Shown here one piece after another: positions 5,370 through 48,951 of a stretch of DNA of 64,000 bases. Position numbers and translations under genes: made by a program. The stretch's first letter is position 1. Every line of letters starts with the position of its first letter. The stretch is from assembly GCF_023525255.1 (NCBI RefSeq), contig NZ_CP073355.1:1-64000 (forward strand). The letters run 5' to 3'. This DNA is from Thermospira aquatica. GTDB taxonomy: Bacteria > Spirochaetota > Brevinematia > Brevinematales > Thermospiraceae. The notes beneath the pieces are model-generated. The model was not told the DNA's origin and searched no databases. It saw nothing but the letters and a program-made list of their open reading frames with translations.

Positions 5370-5779
5370 GCTCTTCCCTTGTTGCAGTGGGTTAGCAAGA
5401 GAAATCCTGTGATACGACAAGAGCATGGTTTTTTTCCTGCGATATGGGAATAGCTTTGGATTTTTCACTTTCACTGTTACAGGGAAACAGCTAACAATCC
5501 TTTGTTTTTCACAGCAACAGGAAAAGAATATTCTCAAAACAGTTGAGCGAGTGAGATGGAGGAGCGCTGTTAAATGTTTAATCTACAATTTCCGACATAA
5601 GCTCTTTCCATGTTGCAGTTTTGGCAAAAAATGTACTATGATAAAGGAAGAGCTCATTTTTCCAAAGGCGAAGAAAGTGCTCTTTCCATATTTCAGTTTT
5701 GTGATCTTCTTTAATGGTTTCTTTTGACTGCGATAAGGGAAGAACTAACATTCTCTCCAAGCTGCAACATGGGAAGAGC
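5370..5779. repeat. Interspersed 19-mer array C (mixed orientation)
   Basis: Ten degenerate copies of the 19-mer GCTMTTMCCNTRTYRCAGT in the gene-free tract before murA. Forward copies start at 5370, 5601 and 5679. Reverse-complement copies start at 5406, 5436, 5473, 5511, 5635, 5727 and 5761. The pairs 5601/5635 and 5679/5727 face each other and could form imperfect stem-loops. The best copies differ from the consensus at one or two positions; 5406 and 5511 are poor. No protein is encoded here. The same motif forms the arrays at 31.3 and 39.3 kb. Confidence 0.75.
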
Positions 5780-17091: not shown

Positions 17092-17160
17092 TGGCTCGAC
17101 AAGCTCGCCAACCGTGGCTCGACAAGCTCGCCAACCGTGGCTCGACAAGCTCGCCAACCG
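17092..17160 (+). repeat. Three tandem copies of a 23-bp unit inside the IS
   Basis: Unit TGGCTCGACAAGCTCGCCAACCG repeated exactly three times before the transposase. Copy 2 of the IS has two units (36143-36188) and copy 3 one (41661-41683). Confidence 0.9.
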
Positions 17161-28515: not shown

Positions 28516-29529
28516 TCAATGCCCTGGATGACCCATTTCCAGTATCTCATCCATCCCATCCTCCTCGTCATACTCAATACCCTCCAGAAAGGTACCAGAA
28601 AAGTGCCTGAAATCGGTCGTTTTCTCCCACTGTTTCCCCCCGAGAGGCTTCACCATGAGTTCAGAAAACTCTGAAAGCTTCCAGTCACCTATCCTGTTCG
28701 CTACCGCTCTATTCATCTTCACTTTGCCTGTTTTGGGATCTCGTATCGTGAAATCCTCCCCACTGTAGTCTTTTCTTGTCTTGCGGTAGACATAGATCCC
28801 ACCATCCGTCATATCAAACTCAATGATATGCACATCATGGGTGATCCCCATCTTCTTGAGACTCCCGGCAAACCGACTGCTGGGATCATACCAAATAAAA
28901 TGGGGCACGTAGGCAGGGATTCGGACAAGAAAACGATCTTTGTACACCTCGAGAAAATTCTTCTTATCCTCTTCGAGAACAACTACATCGTATTTTTTAC
29001 CCTGGTAAAAGAATTCTATCTCACTTATACACGTATCATCATATCGGGTTCCAGGATAGGTAGAGAGGACTCTAAAAGAAAACCATTGAACCTTTACAGC
29101 TCTTCCCAACTTTATCTCTTGAGGTCCCCACTCATCTTTTAATGGAAACACTTCTCCATTGATCACATATTCATCCTCAATTTCTCCCTCCTTTTCTACA
29201 TAGAGAACTCCTGCTATACCAATTTCTTTTACCCTGTTGTTAGCCAGGTACACATTTGTATTCTTTTGATACCCATTGTAAATCACTATAGTGTCAATAA
29301 AAAAGGGTTCTCTAAATACTATTCGAAAATAAGGAGGGACATCACTCGCTGTGTAGTTGGTGTTTACAGCTACACAGGTAGAGAGGTTTTTGTCTAACGC
29401 CAGATAAGGAAAATAGGGGGGTACCACCGCCTGCCAGGCATTCTCTCTATTCGTTCCATCTAGGCGTATCTGCCCATACGCTACCGTTATCCCCAAGATG
29501 AACCATACTATCACAAAAAATCGTTTCAT
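28516..29529 (-). CDS. Secreted discoidin/NADase-type glycan-binding-like protein
   Basis: 337 aa. Signal peptide MKRFFVIVWFILGITVAYG. Residues about 25-190 have the pattern of a discoidin-like glycan-binding module (ALDKNLSTCVAV, YFRIVFREPFFIDTIVIYNGYQKN, WFSFRVLSTYPGTRYDDTCISEIEFF). The C-terminal block KPLGGKQWEKTTDFRHFSGTFLEG also ends the two 70-aa proteins at 30960 and 39003, so it is a shared module. AAAGGAGG precedes the ATG. Confidence 0.65.
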   Translation of the reverse strand: MKRFFVIVWFILGITVAYGQIRLDGTNRENAWQAVVPPYFPYLALDKNLSTCVAVNTNYTASDVPPYFRIVFREPFFIDTIVIYNGYQKNTNVYLANNRVKEIGIAGVLYVEKEGEIEDEYVINGEVFPLKDEWGPQEIKLGRAVKVQWFSFRVLSTYPGTRYDDTCISEIEFFYQGKKYDVVVLEEDKKNFLEVYKDRFLVRIPAYVPHFIWYDPSSRFAGSLKKMGITHDVHIIEFDMTDGGIYVYRKTRKDYSGEDFTIRDPKTGKVKMNRAVANRIGDWKLSEFSELMVKPLGGKQWEKTTDFRHFSGTFLEGIEYDEEDGMDEILEMGHPGH

Positions 29530-29719: not shown

Positions 29720-30601
29720 CTACTCCTCCTCATCCAGATAGATATCCACCACCCAGCCTTTAATTGTATTACCCTTCTTGTCCTTAACGCCTGTGTCTAT
29801 GTATACCCACTTAGCCGTTCTGTCACTAATCGTAAAAGTAACATCCGACCGCTTAAGTATCTTAACCCTTGCTCCCTTCTTTAGCTTTAGTAATACAGCC
29901 GAGTTTGTAGAAGCTTCGGCACGAACGTTTACATTGTCGCCGGTGAGGATGTGGTAGTCATTGGTTAAATTTTCCAAACTATAGGACGAAGAATAAATTT
30001 TACTTTTTATTCTTACCAATTGACCATTTTCATCTTCACAAGAAAAATTATAATAACCTTCGTTGTCAAGTACGAATAAATTATAGAGATAATATTTTGA
30101 GTCCGTTGGTGTTGAATCTCTTGCTAAAAATACAACTCCCTTCTTAAATACTCTGCCTCTTATCTTTTTCCCTTTTTCATTATATCTAATATATGTGCCG
30201 TCTTTATAAAAAGAGTAGTTATAATATGAATCCCCCATTGAACCAATGACTTTAAAAGATTCAAAGTTCGTCACTCTTTCAAAATCATCGGGTTTAGCTA
30301 CACCACTTTTTCTTGCCCATCCAAATATTATATCTTCTCCTTTAGCAGGATTTTTATATACCCCAGTATTTATATAGACCCATTCTCCATATTTATCAGC
30401 CAGATTTTTATTTATCAACTCAGGGTTATAAACCACAAAGAAACCCGCTTTAAGAGTAGTAATTATATTGGAAGAAATGGAAGGGTATTCATAGACATTA
30501 AGATTTTCCTCAACAACAATCATACCAATGTCTTTTGAATGGCCAAAAATAGGATTAAAAATAACCAATGATACAAGTAAGGTTATAACTTTGTTTATCA
30601 T
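29720..30601 (-). CDS. Secreted protein with two SH3b-like domains
   Basis: 293 aa. Signal peptide (MINKVITLLVSLVIFNPIFG), an N-terminal SH3b domain (about 28-100, VEENLNVYEYPSISSNIITTLKAG ... EWVYINTG), a middle beta-rich region, and a C-terminal SH3b domain (about 220-290, GDNVNVRAEASTNSAVLLKL ... KWVYIDTGVKDKKG). Bacterial SH3 domains usually bind cell wall peptides. Markedly AT-rich compared with the core genes. It follows the peptidase-like gene by 20 bp. A decayed relative lies at 37699-38620. Confidence 0.7.
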   Translation of the reverse strand: MINKVITLLVSLVIFNPIFGHSKDIGMIVVEENLNVYEYPSISSNIITTLKAGFFVVYNPELINKNLADKYGEWVYINTGVYKNPAKGEDIIFGWARKSGVAKPDDFERVTNFESFKVIGSMGDSYYNYSFYKDGTYIRYNEKGKKIRGRVFKKGVVFLARDSTPTDSKYYLYNLFVLDNEGYYNFSCEDENGQLVRIKSKIYSSSYSLENLTNDYHILTGDNVNVRAEASTNSAVLLKLKKGARVKILKRSDVTFTISDRTAKWVYIDTGVKDKKGNTIKGWVVDIYLDEEE

Positions 30602-31264: not shown

Positions 31265-32180
31265 GCTGTTTCCTTGTTGCAGTGTAAGAAGGGACGCTTG
31301 TTGCTATTACCTTATCGCAGTACAAAAAACTCCAGCTATTACCATATTGCAGTTAATGCGTGAAACCCGAAAGTTATTCCCTTGTTGCAGTGGAAAACAG
31401 CAATGCTCTTACCTTTTCACAGTCAAAACGAGAAAATTTATTCCCTTATCGCAGTTGGTCTTTCCCCGGTAGCTCTTTCTTTATTGCAGTTGAGAAGCAG
31501 GAAATTTTTTAGCTATTACCCTGTTGCAGTCGGAAGGTATTGTTTAGTGTTGCGGGAAAAACTCTTGCTGTTACCTTGTCACAGTGGGAAAAATTCCGGT
31601 TATTACCATGTCGCAGTGAAAGCTTGAAACCTGAAAGCTCTTCCCGTGTTGGAGGGGAAGGGAGAGAGGATATGAGCTATTACCTTATCGCAGTTAAAAA
31701 GACTGCCATGCTCTTCCCTTGTCGCAGTGTGCCTGTCATGCGGGCTATTACCTTGTCGCAGTGAACTGGAGGGAATTAAGAGCTCTTCCCGTGTTGCAGG
31801 AGAAAAAAAATCTTTTGCTATTACCATGTTGCAGTTTGGAGTTCAAGACTTAAAAGCTTTTTCACTATTGCAGTGGTGGATGAAGAGGAGTCTTTTGCTC
31901 TTCCCATATTGCAGTCAAAAACACCGTGAAAGCCGTTGCAATTGCAGTGGCAATCGAGGGAGAAGCTCTTACCCTATCACAGTTTTACACTCCGCGCTCA
32001 CACTGCAAAAAAGTAATAGCTCATGTTGAAAATTCCAGAGTCACCATCTCCCCGGATTTTGCTTATCCTCCTCAAAACTTGCTATTCCCTTATCACAGTC
32101 TAAGATGAAGGGCTAAACTGCAACAAGGAAAGAGCACCCGAAAAGTTCAACAAAGAAAAAAGATCTTCCTTTATCACAGC
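31265..32180 (+). repeat. Interspersed 19-mer array A
   Basis: About 24 degenerate copies of GCTMTTMCCNTRTYRCAGT. Forward copies start at 31265, 31303, 31335, 31373, 31405, 31437, 31472, 31512, 31567, 31599, 31637, 31676, 31710, 31744, 31782, 31817, 31856, 31897, 31932 (short), 31965, 32081 and 32162; reverse copies at 32002 and 32117. In the regular part the period is mostly 32-41 bp; spacers are 13-22 nt, unlike each other and rich in A and G. No credible gene. The array is cut off at about 32192 by an insertion sequence. Confidence 0.85.
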
Positions 32181-32292
32181 CACAACAAAAACCATTGTGT
32201 CAAGAAAATTGTGTCTAGTCTCTGTCAAATAAATTAAAATGTCACCTTTTTATTGAAATAGAAATGTCACTTTTTTATGCCGAAACTCTACG

Positions 32293-33564
32293 GGCAGTGT
32301 ATACTTAATTGTGTCTGGTAGGAAAAAGATAACCTCCTGTGATAATATAAATAAAACTATCACAGGAGGCCAGATATGATTGAGACGAAGAATATTTTAG
32401 AGCTATTCAAACCAATTGTCAAGGAAGTATTAGAGAGTATGTTAAAAGAGGAAAGAGAGATTTACCTGGAAAACAATCCTCCCACAAAAGGCAATGGCTT
32501 TTACGAAAGGGATTTAAAGACAGCTTTTGGCGAGCTTACAGCCATACGTGTTCCAAGAACAAGGGATAATGGATTTAAAAGTGCCCTTCTTCCCTATCGC
32601 AAACGCATCACAGAAGACTTAGATGCATTAATCAGGGCTATGTTGATATCAGGAATGTCAACAAGGAAGATAGCAGAAGTTTTAAAAGAGCTTTATGAAA
32701 TAAAGATTTCTTATGCTAACATCTCAAGGATAAGCCAGGTAGGCATAGAAGAGATTCAGAAGTGGCGTAGTCGCCCTCTCATGGAAGAATATGCCGTGGT
32801 ATTTCTGGATGCTATGGTGTTTCTATCAAGAGAGATAGGGTAGAAAATGAATCAATATATGTAGCTATAGGCATTACACCTGAGGGAAGACGGGAGATTT
32901 TAGGATACTACCTGCCAGGAGGCATGGAAAGTGCTTATAACTGGCGGGAAATTTTGGCAGATATAAGAGAAAGAGGTGTCAAACAGATTCATTTTATTGT
33001 CTCTGATGGCTTAAGTGGTATGAAAAACGTCATAACAGAGATATATCCCCACGCAAAGTATCAGCCCTGTGTAGTCCATGTCATGAGAAACATACTGGCT
33101 AAAGTGAGAGTTCAACACAGAAATATCATTGCCACTGAAATAAAGAGGTATTTCATGCCAAAGACAAACAGGAGGCAGAACAATTGTTTATGAAATTTAT
33201 ACAAAAATGGAAAAATATCTATCCCAACTTAATGAATAACCTCTTGACAATAAGAGAGAGAATATATTAACTTACATGGAATACCTGAAGGAATACGAAG
33301 CATGGTGTATACAAACAATGCCCTGGAAAGACTCTTTAAAGAACTTAAAAGGAGATTAAAAACAATGGAAATGTGTCAAAGCGAGGCTTCAGCTGAGAAA
33401 TATCTTTACCTGTTATTAAGATACCAAAATGAGAAGTTCTTAAAAAGAAAGTTAAAAAATTGGGAGTATTACTTTCAACTCTATCGTGAGCAACACTCAT
33501 ACACCAAAGAAAATATTCACAGCGAGGTTATCCTATGACTAGACACAATTTTCTTGACACAATG
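32293..33564 (+). mobile_element. IS256-type element 1, innermost
   Basis: 1272 bp inserted at the very 3' end of the ISNCY-type transposase. Perfect 8-bp target duplication ACTCTACG (32285-32292 and 33565-33572). Imperfect terminal repeats share AATTGTGTCT 14 bp from each end. A stem-loop CCTCCTGTGATA/TATCACAGGAGG (about 32334-32369) lies before the transposase start, overlapping its ribosome site. Confidence 0.85.
32376..33538 (+). pseudogene. IS256-family (mutator) transposase 1, broken
   Basis: N-terminal 150 residues are good (RDLKTAFGELTAIRVPRTRDNGF, VVFLDAMVF), then a one-base loss near 32822 shifts the frame. A middle piece (FIVSDGLSGMKNVITEIYPHAKYQPCVVHVMRN) and a C-terminal piece (YTNNALERLFKELKRRLKTME) follow in other frames. 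The frame break near 33152 (an A missing in EIKEVFHAKDK) is shared with element 2. Confidence 0.85.
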
Positions 33565-34727
33565 ACTCTACGACCATAATCATCTATTTCAAAAAAGTTC
33601 AATTCGATATTTTTCTTAAAAATATGTATACTTCCATCAAGCCAGGTTTTTAAGATAACATTGTCCCCGGGTTTTATGGCTATAGGTTGTTTCTTTTCAA
33701 TCTGGTATATTCTTTTAGAAAACTTTATTGTATAATCTCTATAGACTTTGCACTCGGCCGTATAACAAACATAGTTCCTTAAGTCCTGATCAGGCATTAA
33801 TGCAATATGAAAATCTTCATCCGACAGAGGTTTTTTACTAAATTTTCGGTTATTCTTTTCCCAGTAATATTCTTTCAAAAAACGATTGGCACTGTCAATA
33901 TCCTTTATGTTTTTAGTTTCATTTCTGCTATTAACCTGTCCTGATGGATCCCATTCCATCTCTACGCGTCCTTTTGCCTGGGGACTATGGGCATATATCA
34001 TTTCTATCCCCAGCCTATGGCAGACCTCTCCAAACTTTGTTAGAGGCAATTTCCCTGCAAGCTGTTCTTCTATGGTCGCTTCCCGTTTCGTATAGAACAG
34101 GCTTTTATAATCACAATAGATCGAATAAGGAATACCGTATTTCATTATCCAGTCAAACAAACATTGCAGCGCTACTTGTGTCGTTTCTCCTGTGTCGAAA
34201 AGACCGTAAGATGTGCCTGTAGCATCATCCACCATATTCATCAGACAGACTTCTTTGCCTGTCCCAAACCAGTCGTGAATGCTGCCGTCCATTTGAATCA
34301 TTTCTCCAAAATGCTCTTTTCTCGGCCTTCTGGTACGGTGTTTCGCAGTTTTTCTTATTTTCTTCCACAATCCTGTTTCCATCATCCATAAACGAAGCGT
34401 TGATGCTCCTATTTTTATATGATGTTCCTCATAAAGCTTTTCAGCTATAAATGTCGGCTTAAAACCTTTATAATTATTCCGTACTATCTGCATAATTTTC
34501 TCTTTGATATCACTGCTAATTCTGTGATTCCCCGGTTTGCCTATTAATTTGTGATTGAGGGCTTCATCACCCTTTGATAAATATTCTTTAAAAATTCGAA
34601 TAAGTTGCCTTCTGCAAATCCCCAGTATTATTGCAGCATCTTTCTGCTTGATTTTCTTGTTCTTTACCATCTCCAGTATTTTTGCCCTCTTCTGTGCTTT
34701 AAGTGTCATCGTTATCACCTCTCTCAT
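33528..34727 (-). CDS. ISNCY-family DDE transposase 1, last residues replaced
   Basis: 399 aa from ATG 34727 (AGAGG 6 bp upstream). N-terminal helix-turn-helix (KKIKQKDAAIILGICRRQLIRIFKEYL), then the integrase-like core FGEMIQMDGSIHDWFGTGK, CLMNMVDDATGTSYGLF and a later Glu in the KGRVEMEW region. The natural end is GRRVSA (seen in element 2). Here the inner IS256-type insertion changed it to GRRV plus 11 foreign residues, so the enzyme may still work. All other ISNCY and IS256 transposases in the window are frameshifted. Confidence 0.8.
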   Translation of the reverse strand: MREVITMTLKAQKRAKILEMVKNKKIKQKDAAIILGICRRQLIRIFKEYLSKGDEALNHKLIGKPGNHRISSDIKEKIMQIVRNNYKGFKPTFIAEKLYEEHHIKIGASTLRLWMMETGLWKKIRKTAKHRTRRPRKEHFGEMIQMDGSIHDWFGTGKEVCLMNMVDDATGTSYGLFDTGETTQVALQCLFDWIMKYGIPYSIYCDYKSLFYTKREATIEEQLAGKLPLTKFGEVCHRLGIEMIYAHSPQAKGRVEMEWDPSGQVNSRNETKNIKDIDSANRFLKEYYWEKNNRKFSKKPLSDEDFHIALMPDQDLRNYVCYTAECKVYRDYTIKFSKRIYQIEKKQPIAIKPGDNVILKTWLDGSIHIFKKNIELNFFEIDDYGRRVIVSRKLCLVIG

Positions 34728-34830
34728 CTGCAACCTCTCGTTTTTTTAGTTGCAGTATTTTAAAAGGTGACATTTCTATTTGCACAAAGTGTGACATTTT
34801 AAATTGTTTTCGACAGAAAATTGTGTCTAG

Positions 34831-35992
34831 TCATAGGATAACCTCGCTGTGAATATTTTCTTTGGTGTATGAGTGTTGCTCACGATAGAGTTGAAAGTAA
34901 TACTCCCAATTTTTTAACTTTCTTTTTAAGAACTTCTCATTTTGGTATCTTAATAACAGGTAAAGATATTTCTCAGCTGAAGCCTCGCTTTGACACATTT
35001 CCATTGTTTTTAATCTCCTTTTAAGTTCTTTAAAGAGTCTTTCCAGGGCATTGTTTGTATACACCATGCTTCGTATTCCTTCAGGTAATTCCATGTAAGT
35101 GAATATATTCTCTCTTATTGTCAAGAGGTTATTCATTAAGTTGGGATAGATATTTTTCCATTTTTGTGTAAATTTCATAAACAATTGTTCTGCCTCCTGT
35201 TTGTCTTTGGCATGAAATACCTCTTTATTTCAGTGGCAATGATATTTTTCTGTGTTGAACTCTCACTTTAGCCAGTATGTTTCTCATGACATGGACTACA
35301 CAGGGCTGATACTTTGCGTGGGATATATCTCTGTTATGACGTTTTTCATACCACTTAAGCCATCAGAGACAATAAAATGAATCTGTTTGACACCTCTTTC
35401 TCTTATATCTGCAAAATTTCCCGCCAGTTATAAGCACTTTCCATGCCTCCTGGCAGGTAGTATCCTAAAATCTCCGTCTTCCCTCAGGTGTAATGCCTAT
35501 AGCTACATATATTGATTCATTTTCTACCCTATCTCTCTTGATAGGAAACACCATAGCATCCAGAAATACCACGGCATATTCTTCCATGAGAGGGCGACTA
35601 CGCCACTTCTGAATCTCTTCTATGCCTACCTGGCTTATCCTTGAGATGTTAGCATAAGAAATCTTTATTTCATAAAGCTCTTTTAAAACTTCTGCTATCT
35701 TCCTTGTTGACATTCCTGATATCAACATAGCCCTGATTAATGCATCTAAGTCTTCTGTGATGCGTTTGCGATAGGGAAGAAGGGCACTTTTAAATCCATT
35801 ATCCCTTGTTCTTGGAACACGTATGGCTGTAAGCTCGCCAAAAGCTGTCTTTAAATCCCTTTCGTAAAAGCCATTGCCTTTTGTGGGAGGATTGTTTTCC
35901 AGGTAAATCTCTCTTTCCTCTTTTAACATACTCTCTAATACTTCCTTGACAATTGGTTTGAATAGCTCTAAAATATTCTTCGTCTCAATCAT
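34831..35992 (-). pseudogene. IS256-family transposase 2, broken
   Basis: N-terminal 172 residues intact to VAIGITPEGRR, then a G is lost near 35476 (element 1 keeps it). The frameshift in the EIKEVFHAKDK stretch is the same as in element 1. The C-terminal 117 codons are open (34831-35184). Confidence 0.85.
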
Positions 35993-36142
35993 ATCTGGCC
36001 TCCTGTGATAGTTTTATTTATATTATCACAGGAGGTTATCTTTTTCCTACCAGACACAATTAAGTATACACTGCCTCGAAAAGGGAACGTTGCTTCAAAA
36101 TAAAAAAGTACTCCAAATCTGTGTATAAAATAATCCAGTTCA

Positions 36143-36188
36143 TGGCTCGACAAGCTCGCCAACCGTGGCTCGACAAGCTCGCCAACCG
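36143..36188 (+). repeat. Two tandem 23-bp units in IS copy 2
   Basis: Two exact copies of TGGCTCGACAAGCTCGCCAACCG, same place as the three-unit run in copy 1. Confidence 0.9.
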
Positions 36189-36202
36189 GAATTGGGTTGG
36201 CG

Positions 36203-37453
36203 ATGTTTGAAAAAAGACCTATTTACAGGGAAACGGCGAAATGATATGCTGAGCTTGTCGAAGCAGAGTATCAAAAAGCCAGCAAAAAGGAAAAAATGGA
36301 GATACTGGATTACTTTGTGAGGATAACAGGTTTAAAAAACCGAAACTATGCCGCCAGGCTCTTGAGGCAGCACGGAAAAACCATCTATGTAGGCAAGAAA
36401 AATTACCTTAAAGCCGACATAGCCAAGAAGGGCAAAAGACCTGGCAGAAAGAAAAAATTCGGCGAAGAGGAACTAAAACTTCTAAAAAAGGTCTGGGAAA
36501 TTGAAAACTACATGTGTGGCAAACGTTTAAAGCCGATTCTCAATGAAGTTTTAGATAATCTCTTAGCAAACGGACATCTCCACGGTTCTCCACAGGCTAT
36601 AGAAAACTTGCGCCATATAAGTGCTTCAAGTATTGACCGACTTTTGAAACATGAGCGTAAAAAGCTTGAGATAAAAGGACGAAAAGGCACAAAACCTGGA
36701 ACGTTGTTAAAGCAACAAATAGCTATACGCACGTGGGCAGAGTGGGATGAAAATTGCCCTGGTTTTATGGAGATTGATCTGGTTGCCCATGAGGGAGGAA
36801 ATAGCCGGGGAGATTTTGCTCAAACATTAAATATGGTGGATGTTTGGAGCGGTTGGACAGAACTTGTGGCAATCAAAAACAAAGCTTCAAAATGGGTAAG
36901 AGAAGCCATAGAAAAAGTCAAAGGAAGACTTCCTTTTGATTTACGGGGAATTGATTCTGATACCGGTGCTGAATTTATTAATCATCCTCTGCGCGATTGG
37001 TGTGAGAAGAACCAGATAAAATTTACAAGGGGAAGAAGCTCCCGTTCCAATGATAACTGCTACGTTGAGCAGAAAAACTATTCCATAGTCCGCCAGAATG
37101 TTGGATACTTCCGCTACGATACCGAGGAAGAAGTCTACTACTTGAACCGACTCTATGCCTATCTTCGACTGTATACCAACTTTTTTCAACCGGTTATGAA
37201 AATGACAGAGAAAAAGAGAATCGGAAGCAAGGTGCAAAAGAAGCATGATGATATTAAAACTCCCTACCAGCGGCTTTTAGAAAGCTCTTATGTAAGTGAG
37301 GCACAAAAGGAACGCCTAACAAGGCTTTATAAGGCTCTCGATTTGTTTCACCTAAGACAAAAAATTACAGCTTGCCAGAGAAAACTTTACAGCCTTCAAA
37401 AGAAAAAGAATGTAAAAAACAAAAATTTGGAGGAAACTGTATGGAATTTTTGA
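36203..37453 (+). pseudogene. Transposase, rve-type DDE, copy 2 (in-frame stop near start)
   Basis: The core frame 36296-37453 is fully open (385 aa) with MEIDLVAHEGGN, GIDSDTGAEFINHP and NDNCYVEQKN. However the natural start at 36203 is followed by the same 24-bp net insertion as in copy 1, with an in-frame TGA at about residue 15. Initiation at the Met at 36296 could give a shortened protein lacking about 27 N-terminal residues; whether that works is unknown. Confidence 0.7.
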
Positions 37454-37698: not shown

Positions 37699-38620
37699 TT
37701 AATACTCCTCCTCTAAATACACATCCATTACCCAGCCTTTTATTGTATCTCCTTTTTTATCCTTTATCCCTGTATCTACATAAAGCCAGTATCCCTTCCT
37801 TCTTACACCATCTGAATTTTCTATTTCATACCCAACAACTAACCAATCACTTATCTTTACCCTTGTCCCTCTCTTTAATTGAATTATCACTGCTGAATTA
37901 GTATCCGGCTTTTCAAGAAGATTAACATCGTCACCATATATATAGTAGTATCCCTCACGCTGCCCGGATTCTCATACTCCGCCCATTTCGGAAATTTATT
38001 CTTGTCGGTTATTACCTTTGTACTATAAGCAAATGGAACTCGTAGTTTACCTTTTTCATCGTAATAGAATATATCAACATTATTACCTAACATGATTATA
38101 TTTTTGAATTTATAAATTTTCCTTTCAAACTTTTATTATCAACATTGTATACAAGATTTTTAGTTATTATCCTATAGGTACCATTTGAGTATATCCGATA
38201 ATAAACAACTCCTCCTTCTTCATCAAAGGCTTCTATGAACATTTCCTGTATCTTTTTTACCGGTTTAAAATCGTTCTTACCAGCTAAATGCCTTCTCTCA
38301 GTCCAACCTTGGATTGTTAAAACTTTCCAACCATTATCAGTTAGAACCATCTCCTGATTACTACTCATTCCAGAATCAATATAGAACCACTCAGTAACAT
38401 TTGAATTACTTGCCATTATAATATTCGTCTTACCTAAAATATTAACACATTGAAGATAAGGTAACTGCATTAGTTTCATTGAGTTAGCACTTGGCTGTTC
38501 AAATAATTCCACTTCTCTATCTATAACATAAACCGAATTACTTCCAAAAGGTTTTATTTCAATTGAATAAACACCATTAGAAATGACACATATTACCAGT
38601 ATGAATAATAAAGAGCGCAT
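37699..38620 (-). pseudogene. SH3b-like secreted protein, copy B, frameshifted
   Basis: Signal peptide MRSLLFILVICVISNGVYS, a first SH3b-like part (VIDREVELFEQPSANSMKLMQL ... EWFYIDSG), then a one-base loss in an A-run near 38098 and a second shift near 37945, after which the C-terminal SH3b reads LLEKPDTNSAVIIQLKRGTRVKIS ... WLYVDTGIKDKKGDTIKGW. Homologous throughout to the intact 29720-30601 gene but clearly diverged. Confidence 0.75.
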
Positions 38621-38625
38621 TTAAA

Positions 38626-39006
38626 TTACCTCCTAATAGTTAAGTGTAGATGATGTCTATGTTTATACATAAAATTATACCTCTTTTTAGACAAATTTCC
38701 GTTTGGATATCCTTGTTGCCAAACATTTGGTTGATTATATGTGTTACCTGGTATTTTACTTTTCACCCACCACGGATCCAGCGCCTGACTTACTCTTTGG
38801 TCATTTACCATACTGTTGTACACTTCATTTCTTAACGCCATCGCAGCTTGTGATTGTGGCCCTACAGTCGAATTATTAAACCTTACTGTTAAATTACCCC
38901 TTGTTACAGCTACAATATCTATCCCTCTTCCCGACCCATGAGGGCTTGTAGCGCTATTCCTCCACAAGCTTGATACCTGAATACTATCCACATCCACACT
39001 CCTCAC
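38626..39006 (-). CDS. Small LAS-type (M15-like) metallopeptidase, copy B
   Basis: 126 aa. Same first 31 residues as copy A apart from one change, with SPHGSGRGIDI and a C-terminal HRHHLHLTIRR completing the zinc motif. The centre differs in sequence and is 13 residues longer. GTG start overlaps the TGA of the upstream gene. Followed after 5 bp by the decayed SH3 gene. Confidence 0.6.
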   Translation of the reverse strand: MRSVDVDSIQVSSLWRNSATSPHGSGRGIDIVAVTRGNLTVRFNNSTVGPQSQAAMALRNEVYNSMVNDQRVSQALDPWWVKSKIPGNTYNQPNVWQQGYPNGNLSKKRYNFMYKHRHHLHLTIRR

Positions 39007-39215
39007 TGACTACTTCTATCCAGAACCATCCCCATCCAACCTACGTCATGCATAACACCCTCCAGAAATGTCCCACTAAAGTCTTTAAAATACGGCGTCT
39101 TTTCCCACTCTTTACTCCCTCGTGGTCTTACCATAAGCCCATACACCACACCTCCAGCTACTGCAAACTTTCTCACACCCTTCTTCAAGGCTTCTTCATA
39201 CTCTTTCCACTTCAT
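39003..39215 (-). CDS. 70-aa protein with WEKT-FSGTFLEG tail, copy B
   Basis: Near-identical to 30960-31172. GGGGAGG lies 6 bp before the ATG, a better ribosome site than in copy A, which fixes the start in both. Upstream lies array B. Confidence 0.55.
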   Translation of the reverse strand: MKWKEYEEALKKGVRKFAVAGGVVYGLMVRPRGSKEWEKTPYFKDFSGTFLEGVMHDVGWMGMVLDRSSQ

Positions 39216-39319
39216 AGATACCTCCCCATTTTTTATGTTGGAGCTTTGTTTTATAACTTTTTCGAATGTATTATACCACCAGTTGGGGATTTTTGCAATG
39301 GGCATTTGTCACAATTTTT

Positions 39320-40287
39320 GCTGTTTCCTTGTTGCAGTGTAAGAAGGGACGCTTGTTGCTATTACCTTATCGCAGTACAAAAAACTCCAGCTATTACCAT
39401 ATTGCAGTTAATGCGTGAAACCCGAAAGTTATTCCCTTGTTGCAGTGGCAATCGAGGGATATAGCTATTACCCTGTCACAGTCCCCAGAAACATAAAAAC
39501 TGAAACAAGGTAATAGCAATCCCCCTACCTAACTATTACCATGTTACAGTGTAAAAAGAAACACCCAGATTTTCCCTTGTCGCAGTAAACTCCTGCTCTT
39601 CCCTTTTTGCAGTGGAAAAAATTCCGGTTATTACCATGTCGCAGTGAAAGCTTGAAACCTGAAAGCTCTTCCCGTGTTGGAGGGGAAGGGAGAGAGGATA
39701 TGAGCTATTACCTTATCGCAGGGAGAGTGAAAAAACAAAAGCTCTTCCCTTGTCGCAGTCGGAAGAGGAACCTCTGGCTATTACCTTGTTGCAGTGAACT
39801 GGAGGGAATTAAGAGCTCTTCCCGTGTTGCAGGAGAAAAAAAATCTTTTGCTATTACCATGTTGCAGTTTGGAGTTCAAGACTTAAAAGCTTTTTCACTA
39901 TTGCAGTGGTGGATGAAGAGGAGTCTTTTTGCTCTTCCCATATTGCAGTCAAAACGTACACCGTGAAAGCCCTTCCCTTGTTGCAGTGGCAATCGAGGGA
40001 GAAGCTCTATCACAGTTTTACACTCCGCGCTCACACTGCAAAAAAGTAATAGCTCATGTTGAAAATTCCAGAGTCACCATCTCCCCGGATTTTGCTTATC
40101 CTCCTCAAAACTTGCTATTCCCTTATCACAGTCTAAGATGAAGGGCTAAACTGCAACAAGGAAAGAGCACCCGAAAAGTTCAACAAAGAAAAAAGATCTT
40201 CCTTTATCACAGCCACAACAAAAATATCCTTGCCCTCTTTCTCTGTCACAGCTAAAAACGCTTCCGGTACTCTTCCCATGTCGCAGG
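39320..40287 (+). repeat. Interspersed 19-mer array B
   Basis: Duplicate of array A with changes. The first four units and many later units have the same spacers as array A. Between about 39447 and 39610 the content is different, including a reverse copy near 39499-39517. The spacer GGCAATCGAGGGA appears twice (about 39447 and 39988). Two more units beyond the point where array A is cut (about 40234 and 40269-40287) show the original right edge. No gene seen; 40288-40358 is plain. Confidence 0.85.
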
Positions 40288-40358: not shown

Positions 40359-41773
40359 CCCGTTGCGTCAAATAAAAAAGTACTCGAAATTCGAATCATT
40401 GCCTCATAAAAAAAAGTACTCAAAAATTCCATACAGTTTCCTCCAAATTTTTGTTTTTTACATTCTTTTTCTTTTGAAGGCTGAAAAGTTTTCTCTGGCA
40501 AGCTGTAATTTTTTGTCTTAGGTGAAACAAATCGAGAGCCTTATAAAGCCTTGTTAGGCGTTCCTTTTGTGCCTCACTTACATAAGAGCTTTCTAAAAGC
40601 CGTTGGTAGGGAGTTTTAATATCATCATGCTTCTTTTGCACCTTGCTTCCGATTCTCTTTTTCTCTGTCATTTTCATAACCGGTTGAAAAAAGTTGGCAT
40701 AAAGCCTGAGATACGCATAGAGTCGGTTCAAGTAGTAGACTTCTTCCTCGGTATCGTAGCGGAAGTATCCAACATTCTGGCGGACTATGGAATAGTTTTT
40801 CTGCTCAACGTAGCAGTTATCATTGGAACGGGAGCTTCTACCCCTTGTAAATTTTATCTGGTGCTTCTCACACCAATCACGCAGAGGATGATTAATAAAT
40901 TCAGCACCGGTATCAGAATCAATTCCCCGTAAATCAAAAGGAAGTCTTCTTTGGACTTTTTCTATGGCTTCTCTTACCCATTTTGAAGCCTTGTTTTTGA
41001 TTGCCACAAGCTCTGTCCAACCGCTCCAAACATCCACCATATTTAATGTTTGAGCAAAGTCTCCCCGGCTATTTCCTCCCTCATGGGCTACCAGATCAAT
41101 CTCCATGAACCCAGGGCAATTTTCATCCCACTCTGCCCACGTGCGTATAGCTATTTGTTGCTTTAACAACGTTCCAGGCTTTGTACCTTTTCGTCCTTTT
41201 ATCTCAAGCTTTTTACGCTCATGTTTCAAAAGTCGGTCAATACTTGAAGCACTTATATGGCGCAAGTTTTCTATAGCCTGTTGAAAACCCTGGAGATGTC
41301 CGTTTGCTAAGAGATTATCTAAAACTTCATTTAAAATCGGCTTTAAACGTTTGCCACACATGTAGTTTTCAATTTCCCAGACCTTTTTTAGAAGTTTTAG
41401 TTCCTCTTCGCCGAATTTTTTCTTTCTGCCAGGTCTTTTGCCCTTCTTGGCTATGTCGGCTTTAAGGTAATTTTTCTTGCCTACATAGATGTTTTTTCCG
41501 TGCTGCCTCAAGAGCCTGGCGGCATAGTTTCGATTTTTTAGGCCTGTTATCCTCACAAAATAATCCAGTATCTCCATTTTTTCCTTTTTGCTGGCTTTTT
41601 GATATTGTTTTGCCGTTTCCCTGTAAATAGGTCTCCTTTCAAACATCGCCACCCCAATTCCGGTTGGCGAGCTTGTCGAGCCATGAACTGGATTATTTTA
41701 CACAAATTTAAAGTACTTTTTTATTTTGAAGCAACGTTCCCTTTTCGAGTACTTTTATTATGAAGCAATTCGA
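40359..41773 (-). mobile_element. rve-type insertion sequence, copy 3 (intact)
   Basis: Complete, with an intact transposase. Right end CCCGTTGCGTCAAAT at 40359, left end at about 41773. Its left end carries the 17-bp site into which the second ISNCY-type element inserted. One 23-bp unit only (41661-41683). Confidence 0.85.
40420..41646 (-). CDS. rve-type DDE transposase, copy 3
   Basis: 408 aa from ATG 41646 (MFERRPIYRE). An N-terminal helical DNA-binding region (LDYFVRITGLKNRNYAARLLRQHG), then an integrase core with DDE candidates in MEIDLVAHEGGN, GIDSDTGAEFINHPLRDWC and SRSNDNCYVEQKN, and a basic coiled C-terminus (LRQKITACQRKLFSLQKKK). It is the only full-length member of four copies and probably mobilises the others. 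I place it among rve-core transposases near the IS481 type; the exact family name is uncertain. Confidence 0.85.
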   Translation of the reverse strand: MFERRPIYRETAKQYQKASKKEKMEILDYFVRITGLKNRNYAARLLRQHGKNIYVGKKNYLKADIAKKGKRPGRKKKFGEEELKLLKKVWEIENYMCGKRLKPILNEVLDNLLANGHLQGFQQAIENLRHISASSIDRLLKHERKKLEIKGRKGTKPGTLLKQQIAIRTWAEWDENCPGFMEIDLVAHEGGNSRGDFAQTLNMVDVWSGWTELVAIKNKASKWVREAIEKVQRRLPFDLRGIDSDTGAEFINHPLRDWCEKHQIKFTRGRSSRSNDNCYVEQKNYSIVRQNVGYFRYDTEEEVYYLNRLYAYLRLYANFFQPVMKMTEKKRIGSKVQKKHDDIKTPYQRLLESSYVSEAQKERLTRLYKALDLFHLRQKITACQRKLFSLQKKKNVKNKNLEETVWNF

Positions 41774-48664: not shown

Positions 48665-48951
48665 GGAAAAAACAAATAAATAGATTTTAATATGATTATT
48701 TTTTCATATAAAAGAGGAATATGTGATAAAAATACAAAAAATGAACGCTCTACCCTTTTTACAGTTTGTTATTTTGTAAGTCTCTCCCAAAATCAGGGAA
48801 TAGCCAATCGATTCTCCAGGTTCTGGCCAAAAGATCGTCAGAGGCCATTTCTCGGACTTTTAAATAGGAAAGAAAAGAAAGCCATCGTACCCAAAATACA
48901 ACCTCTTTTGTTCCCTGTGAAAACACGTCACACACCCACTTTTCAGATTTT
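48665..48951. other. Gene-free stretch
   Basis: Nothing is visible here beyond AT-rich spacer; short open frames do not look coding and the 19-mer is absent. Confidence 0.5.

Follow-up and report, generated by a model that had tools for sequence, protein, structure and literature searches.

The window, i.e. the whole 64-kb stretch of the Thermospira aquatica genome that was analysed, contains arrays of a short repeat, a 19-mer with the consensus GCTMTTMCCNTRTYRCAGT, which matched 57 times in the window with up to three mismatches allowed, versus a mean of 0.44 and a maximum of 3 matches in shuffled sequences. The arrays, their immediate neighbours and a third paralogous array on the same contig are as follows.

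5370 to 5779, no strand assigned: further 19-mer array of mixed orientation (+---+-+--), intergenic, upstream of murA
31265 to 32191, plus strand: array A, 19-mers mostly in plus orientation, ending in a mixed -+-+ module, right end truncated by an insertion sequence (IS)
32193 to 36300, no strand assigned: nested IS copies truncating array A, with 28-bp ends at 32193-32220 and 33537-33564 and fragments of Mutator-type and rve-type transposases inside
38626 to 39305, minus strand: two small ORFs with no Pfam match, directly left of array B
39320 to 40287, plus strand: array B, paralogous to array A, its middle block replaced and two further units present at the right
40420 to 41652, minus strand: rve-type IS transposase, right of array B
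48747 to 48765, plus strand: isolated 19-mer copy in an intergenic gap
423601 to 424770, same contig: array C, the third paralogue of arrays A and B

A preliminary description had compared A and B, and alignment bore out what it said of their layout. The first four units are common to both arrays (31265-31391 and 39320-39446), the middles are unlike (31392-31585 versus 39447-39613), and the later units follow in a common order, A 31586-32191 and B 39614-40224 being collinear at ~92% identity. The spacer GGCAATCGAGGGA, reported as occurring twice in B and once in A, lies at 39447-39459 and 39988-40000 in B and at 31949-31961 in A, and the A unit at 31932-31948 (GCCGTTGCAATTGCAGT) corresponds, as had been claimed, to the B unit at 39969-39987 (GCCCTTCCCTTGTTGCAGT) in shortened form. 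Two right-hand units, a weak one at ~40233-40251 and another at 40269-40287, are indeed extra in B; array A, said to have lost them to an IS, ends at 32191 next to the 28-bp IS end 32193-32220, of which 33537-33564 is an inverted copy. The frame of a local pair was nevertheless too narrow, since A and B are two of dozens of end-repeat arrays. A DNA search of the same genome returned the paralogous region of array C (422227-424384), which is 94-98% identical to B in the main blocks, and DNA homologous to 38626-39305 was found also to the left of arrays A and C and of those at 433 kb, 784 kb and 1344 kb, indicating that array and flank were duplicated as one; the small ORFs in it are possibly cargo, or merely duplicated flank.

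By a three-way alignment of A, B and C, in which C served as the third copy, the changes were polarised and three segments were distinguished.

31392 to 31585, plus strand: middle of array A, ancestral-like, with several units common to array C and to an element at 784 kb; lost from B
31676 to 31762, plus strand: exchanged two-unit block in array A, with spacers matching 424498-424546 in C and 1223181-1223229; B has other spacers there
39447 to 39613, plus strand: B-specific replaced block, opening with the re-used spacer GGCAATCGAGGGA (its second copy)

The block that follows unit 4 (31392-31530) is common to A and C, and 39447-39613 takes its place in B. Inside this replacement, 57 bp (39462-39518) match, at ~91% identity, the right arm of elements that carry the transposase (at 138139, 592807, 1562017, 2208842 and others), and the B unit at 39428 is unit 4 joined to the spacer of unit 39969. 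Array C has lost the segment common to A (31599-31694) and B (39627-39722), and its unit 423848, located at a deletion junction and reading GCTATTACCCTGTCGCAGT followed by CGGAAGAGGAACC, is a chimera of two 19-mers, with its left half from the A/C unit GCTATTACCCTGTTGCAGT and its right half from the B unit GCTCTTCCCTTGTCGCAGT; the units between are gone and the crossover falls inside the 19-mer. The two spacers of the exchanged block in A sit further downstream in C (424498-424546). In the 592 kb sampled, 141 of the 315 same-strand spacers had a close relative elsewhere, versus 0 for base-shuffled spacers. Thus, the A/B/C alignment and the spacer recurrence demonstrate that blocks of units have been gained, lost and re-used between 19-mers. 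The recombination between 19-mers put forward in the preliminary description is well supported by the chimeric unit and the re-used spacers, and its view of the arrays as dynamic holds between paralogues within one genome only. As the process behind the block changes we infer one of RecA type, slippage or another.

Among the unique same-strand spacers of the T. aquatica arrays, 130 of 200 had an odd length (P ~1e-5), with peaks at 11, 15 and 19 bp, an excess that may reflect residual relatedness. Individually palindromic spacers were not detected in fixed-offset tests, and the best-offset z was only 2.8.

Genome-wide, 713 copies of the 19-mer with no more than two mismatches were counted in the 2.5-Mb T. 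aquatica genome (G000), and 0 with the reversed control pattern; ~0.6 Mb was read in detail as sampled stretches, with one genome per species and with ORFs taken from a simple scan, not from annotation. Only 36 of 325 sampled copies fell inside ORFs of at least 150 aa, though such ORFs cover 79% of the bases. In these 325 copies T3, T5, T6, C8, T11, T13, C16, A17 and G18 were fixed, while four positions were persistently mixed (A/C at 4, A/C at 7, T/C at 14 and G/A at 15), a pattern of a degenerate binding site and not of drifting copies. On inspection the single 19-mer has no internal dyad and the palindrome arises from the pair, the arms of which mismatch mainly at positions 6, 7, 9, 10 and 12, so that arm pairing is imperfect. 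A CRISPR array, which would have near-identical repeats, unique spacers of constant length and cas genes, was rejected in view of the degenerate 19-mers and of the 7-41 bp spacers re-used between arrays; for a CRISPR-like or known RNA there was no Rfam match either, and none of the ~20 window ORFs scanned was cas-like. As to a terminator role, 19-mer clusters showed no clear excess between convergent genes in G000 or in the sister species G002. A search for the exact 19-mer in a wider set of genome contigs, from which the genome itself may be absent, gave three single chance-like matches.

The arrays accompany a gene. G000 has 13 intact genes (plus several broken ones) for a 266-aa IS1595-like protein, which in the sampled loci have 19-mer arrays on both sides, typically in the order (+)n - + - gene + + - + - + (-)n. 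As the left arm directly beside the intact gene at 784 kb begins with the same units as A, B and C, these three arrays are best read as left arms that lost the gene. The outer array units vary between the G000 copies, leaving the outer element ends fuzzy in this genome. Transposition is deduced from copies at unrelated places, no empty-site pair having been found.

In the protein, PF12760 (Zn_ribbon_IS1595) scored above cut-off in all members scanned, and only about the last 40 of the 153 profile positions of DDE_Tnp_IS1595 matched; the NCBIfam IS1595 model stayed below cut-off for the proteins of the genus. In an alignment that included full-length IS1595 proteins from the same phylum, which retain all three motifs (D, D, N/E), seven distinct homologues from four species were without these motifs, and ~80 residues were absent from the part that separates the first D region from the C-terminal helix. 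The region concerned aligns poorly, and the loss of DDE is therefore claimed from motif absence across the whole stretch rather than from single columns. On this alignment the protein appears catalytically dead and may not itself move anything. A C-terminal segment, YHxGCRxHxQxY, is invariant among the homologues, and dN/dS was 0.11 over the 78 pairs of the 13 G000 copies (median dN 0.027, dS 0.23), lowest in the zinc-ribbon/HTH part and in the C-terminal segment; judged by these rates, the protein is under purifying selection.

The AlphaFold model of the protein was poor (pLDDT 58), with the C-terminal half mostly below 50 and confidence only for the N-terminal part; comparing it with PDB folds gave no match at E <0.001, and a PDB sequence search returned zinc-ribbon look-alikes only. 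No relative was detected in viral contigs; in plasmids the ten best matches listed, at 24-29% identity, were all to ordinary IS1595 transposases or lacked annotation. No full-length IS1595 protein that might help in trans turned up in G000, G001 or G002, and the HUH (Y1) profile PF01797, which would mark a RAYT-type protein, had no match in these three genomes and was positive, as a control, in 5 of 14 named genomes.

As the protein diverges in the sister species, so does the repeat. The G002 homologues (42-44% identity) have on their flanks a variant of their own, GCTATTACCNTRTTTCAGC, present in 311 copies; in the stretches read, these 19-mers mostly form inverted doublets of 54 bp, whose arms lie 34-36 bp apart, the genes have hairpin pairs on both sides, and the element copies start and end exactly at the 19-mer. 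The G001 orthologue has a hairpin of a related motif on each side, with 7 motif copies genome-wide. More than 100 intergenic copies, largely in inverted doublets or clusters, are present in G000 (713) and G002 (311) and not in G001 (7). A second G001 paralogue (36% identity) has a different end, GCTCTCYCCTTKNATCAA, of which 33, 28 and 2 copies were counted in G001, G002 and G000, respectively, against 2, 3 and 4 for the reversed-pattern controls. In G001 this end forms inverted pairs 63-69 bp apart, mostly 65-69, with poorly conserved interiors, and 14 of its 24 places lie on the contig carrying the gene, which makes up 6% of the genome (P ~1e-11); a close hairpin was present only upstream of this gene. 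That protein and repeat belong together is argued most strongly by this second, separate case. No target-site duplication of at least 4 bp was found at any of 25 G002 hairpins (edges, 2-bp slack), and none at two full G002 elements.

On G001 contig C29, at 75-119 kb, the second DDE-less IS1595-like paralogue has ~85-bp hairpins clustered round its gene, and their right flanks usually begin with AT. A further DDE-less homologue was seen in another family of the order (G007), near the end of contig C63 (4345-5142 of stretch L127); in the flank examined, a hairpin pair was not apparent.

In REP/RAYT systems the repeat lies on both sides of the gene, in inverted doublets and in head-to-tail clusters with unrelated segments, repeat and protein co-diverge, and the repeats cluster locally round the gene (PMC2817692, PMC3116915). 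The present family is alike in having hundreds of short intergenic repeats, mostly as inverted doublets in G002, a gene between inverted repeat copies (hairpins in G002 and G001, array arms in G000), head-to-tail clusters with unrelated segments, repeat-protein co-divergence and local clustering round the gene. It is unlike them in that RAYTs are HUH (Y1) tyrosine transposases of IS200/IS605 type, whereas the present protein derives from IS1595, a single 19-mer is no clear palindrome and the gene is multicopy. Since the defining protein does not match a RAYT, the system works like REP/RAYT and is not a member of it. With the ISXO2-like ISs of the IS1595 family and their MITEs it shares the N-terminal zinc ribbon, the HTH, the C-terminal helix and the terminal inverted repeats. 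IS1595 elements generate 8-bp target-site duplications (PMC8101967). The family described here descends from IS1595, yet has no DDE motifs, no 8-bp duplication, and up to ~twenty end-repeats per side. The arms resemble those of another class in layout only, the proteins being different: foldback-type elements and transposons with multiple subterminal transposase sites have long inverted arms with many short direct repeats, the number of which varies by recombination.

We consider it probable that A and B are left-arm remnants of a DDE-less, IS1595-derived family with expanded arms of terminal and subterminal putative binding sites, reshuffled by homologous recombination. The 19-mer would be the recognition site of the 266-aa zinc-ribbon/HTH protein, placed at and just inside the element ends, a role that we infer from its position and its co-divergence with the protein. 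Binding as a dimer or oligomer could account for the fixed arm spacings. A full element would then consist of plus-oriented 19-mers, a mixed -+- module, the gene, a ++-+-+ module and minus-oriented 19-mers, and inverted pairs without the gene would be a REPIN-like dispersed form, the dispersed hairpins being the minimal units. The arrays would grow and shrink by recombination between units: with hundreds of degenerate 19-mers 30-40 bp apart, RecA-type or slippage recombination may delete, duplicate and swap blocks, yielding chimeric 19-mers and re-used spacers of the kind seen in A, B and C. A and B would have lost the gene and been trimmed by other ISs. Dispersal could have come from an unrelated helper, from an unrecognised activity, or from spread before the catalytic domain was lost, though with intact ORFs under selection pure decay is unlikely.

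An ordinary IS1595-family IS, with the protein as an active DDE transposase, the hairpins as its MITEs and nothing unusual except decay, would fit the match to Zn_ribbon_IS1595 and to the last 40 residues of DDE_Tnp_IS1595, the multiple copies, and the inverted repeats that bound the elements. We regard it as unlikely, because ~80 residues are missing, the D, D, N/E positions are unconserved in 7/7 distinct homologues, and the 8-bp duplications published for the family (PMC8101967) are seen at none of the 25 hairpins; nor was a full-length IS1595 protein able to act in trans found in the three genomes. The loss of catalytic motifs, the strong purifying selection, the binding-site-like degeneracy of the 19-mer and the intergenic position of the arrays could point to a host-domesticated DNA-binding protein, one with chromosomal site arrays for a nucleoid or segregation role that spread mainly by duplication and not by transposition. 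This, too, is improbable in our view, as 13 intact gene copies at unrelated places, each in its own arrays in the sampled loci, and a swing from 7 to 713 repeat copies between sister species look like a mobile family and not a host function. That the differences between A and B are artefacts of assembling near-identical arrays is very improbable: repeats of such type are hard to assemble, but A, B and C are several percent apart in sequence and have different flanking genes, blocks of the A type and of the B type both find support in C, and the genome, estimated to be 99.8% complete, forms one 2.5-Mb contig, all of which argues against a mis-assembled duplicate.

Beyond the DDE-less family with recombining arms, we raise, as a bolder and rather doubtful possibility, that the IS1595-derived protein, with its newly conserved YHxGCRxHxQxY, spreads REPIN-like hairpins through a mechanism using neither DDE nor HUH chemistry, or does so by recruiting host replication or repair. 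If true, this would be an independently evolved REP/RAYT-like system. In the papers cited (PMC2817692, PMC3116915), abundant bacterial REP-like repeats are tied to HUH-type RAYTs, and the partner here is an unrelated, catalytically reduced transposase relative, in a gene-repeat partnership seen in at least two separate paralogues. The combination of a DDE-less IS1595-like protein with a REP-like repeat was not found among the results listed from the open-access literature. Copy numbers that differ so widely between sister species (7 to 713), together with the unit record of A, B and C, make the birth, spread and recombination of the repeats directly testable.

Some further features were observed in the window and genome. 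A gene for a NADase_transloc-type F5/8C-domain protein (28516-29529) adjoins one for a bacterial SH3-domain protein (29720-30601), and a short SH3-like relative lies at 38096-38620. The genome has four FlaA (PF04620) genes, and 14 control genomes have 0, as would suit a spirochaete. A perfect 23-bp tandem repeat, TGGCTCGACAAGCTCGCCAACCG, occurs in three copies at 17092-17160 and in two at 36143-36188, the neighbouring DNA being common to both places.
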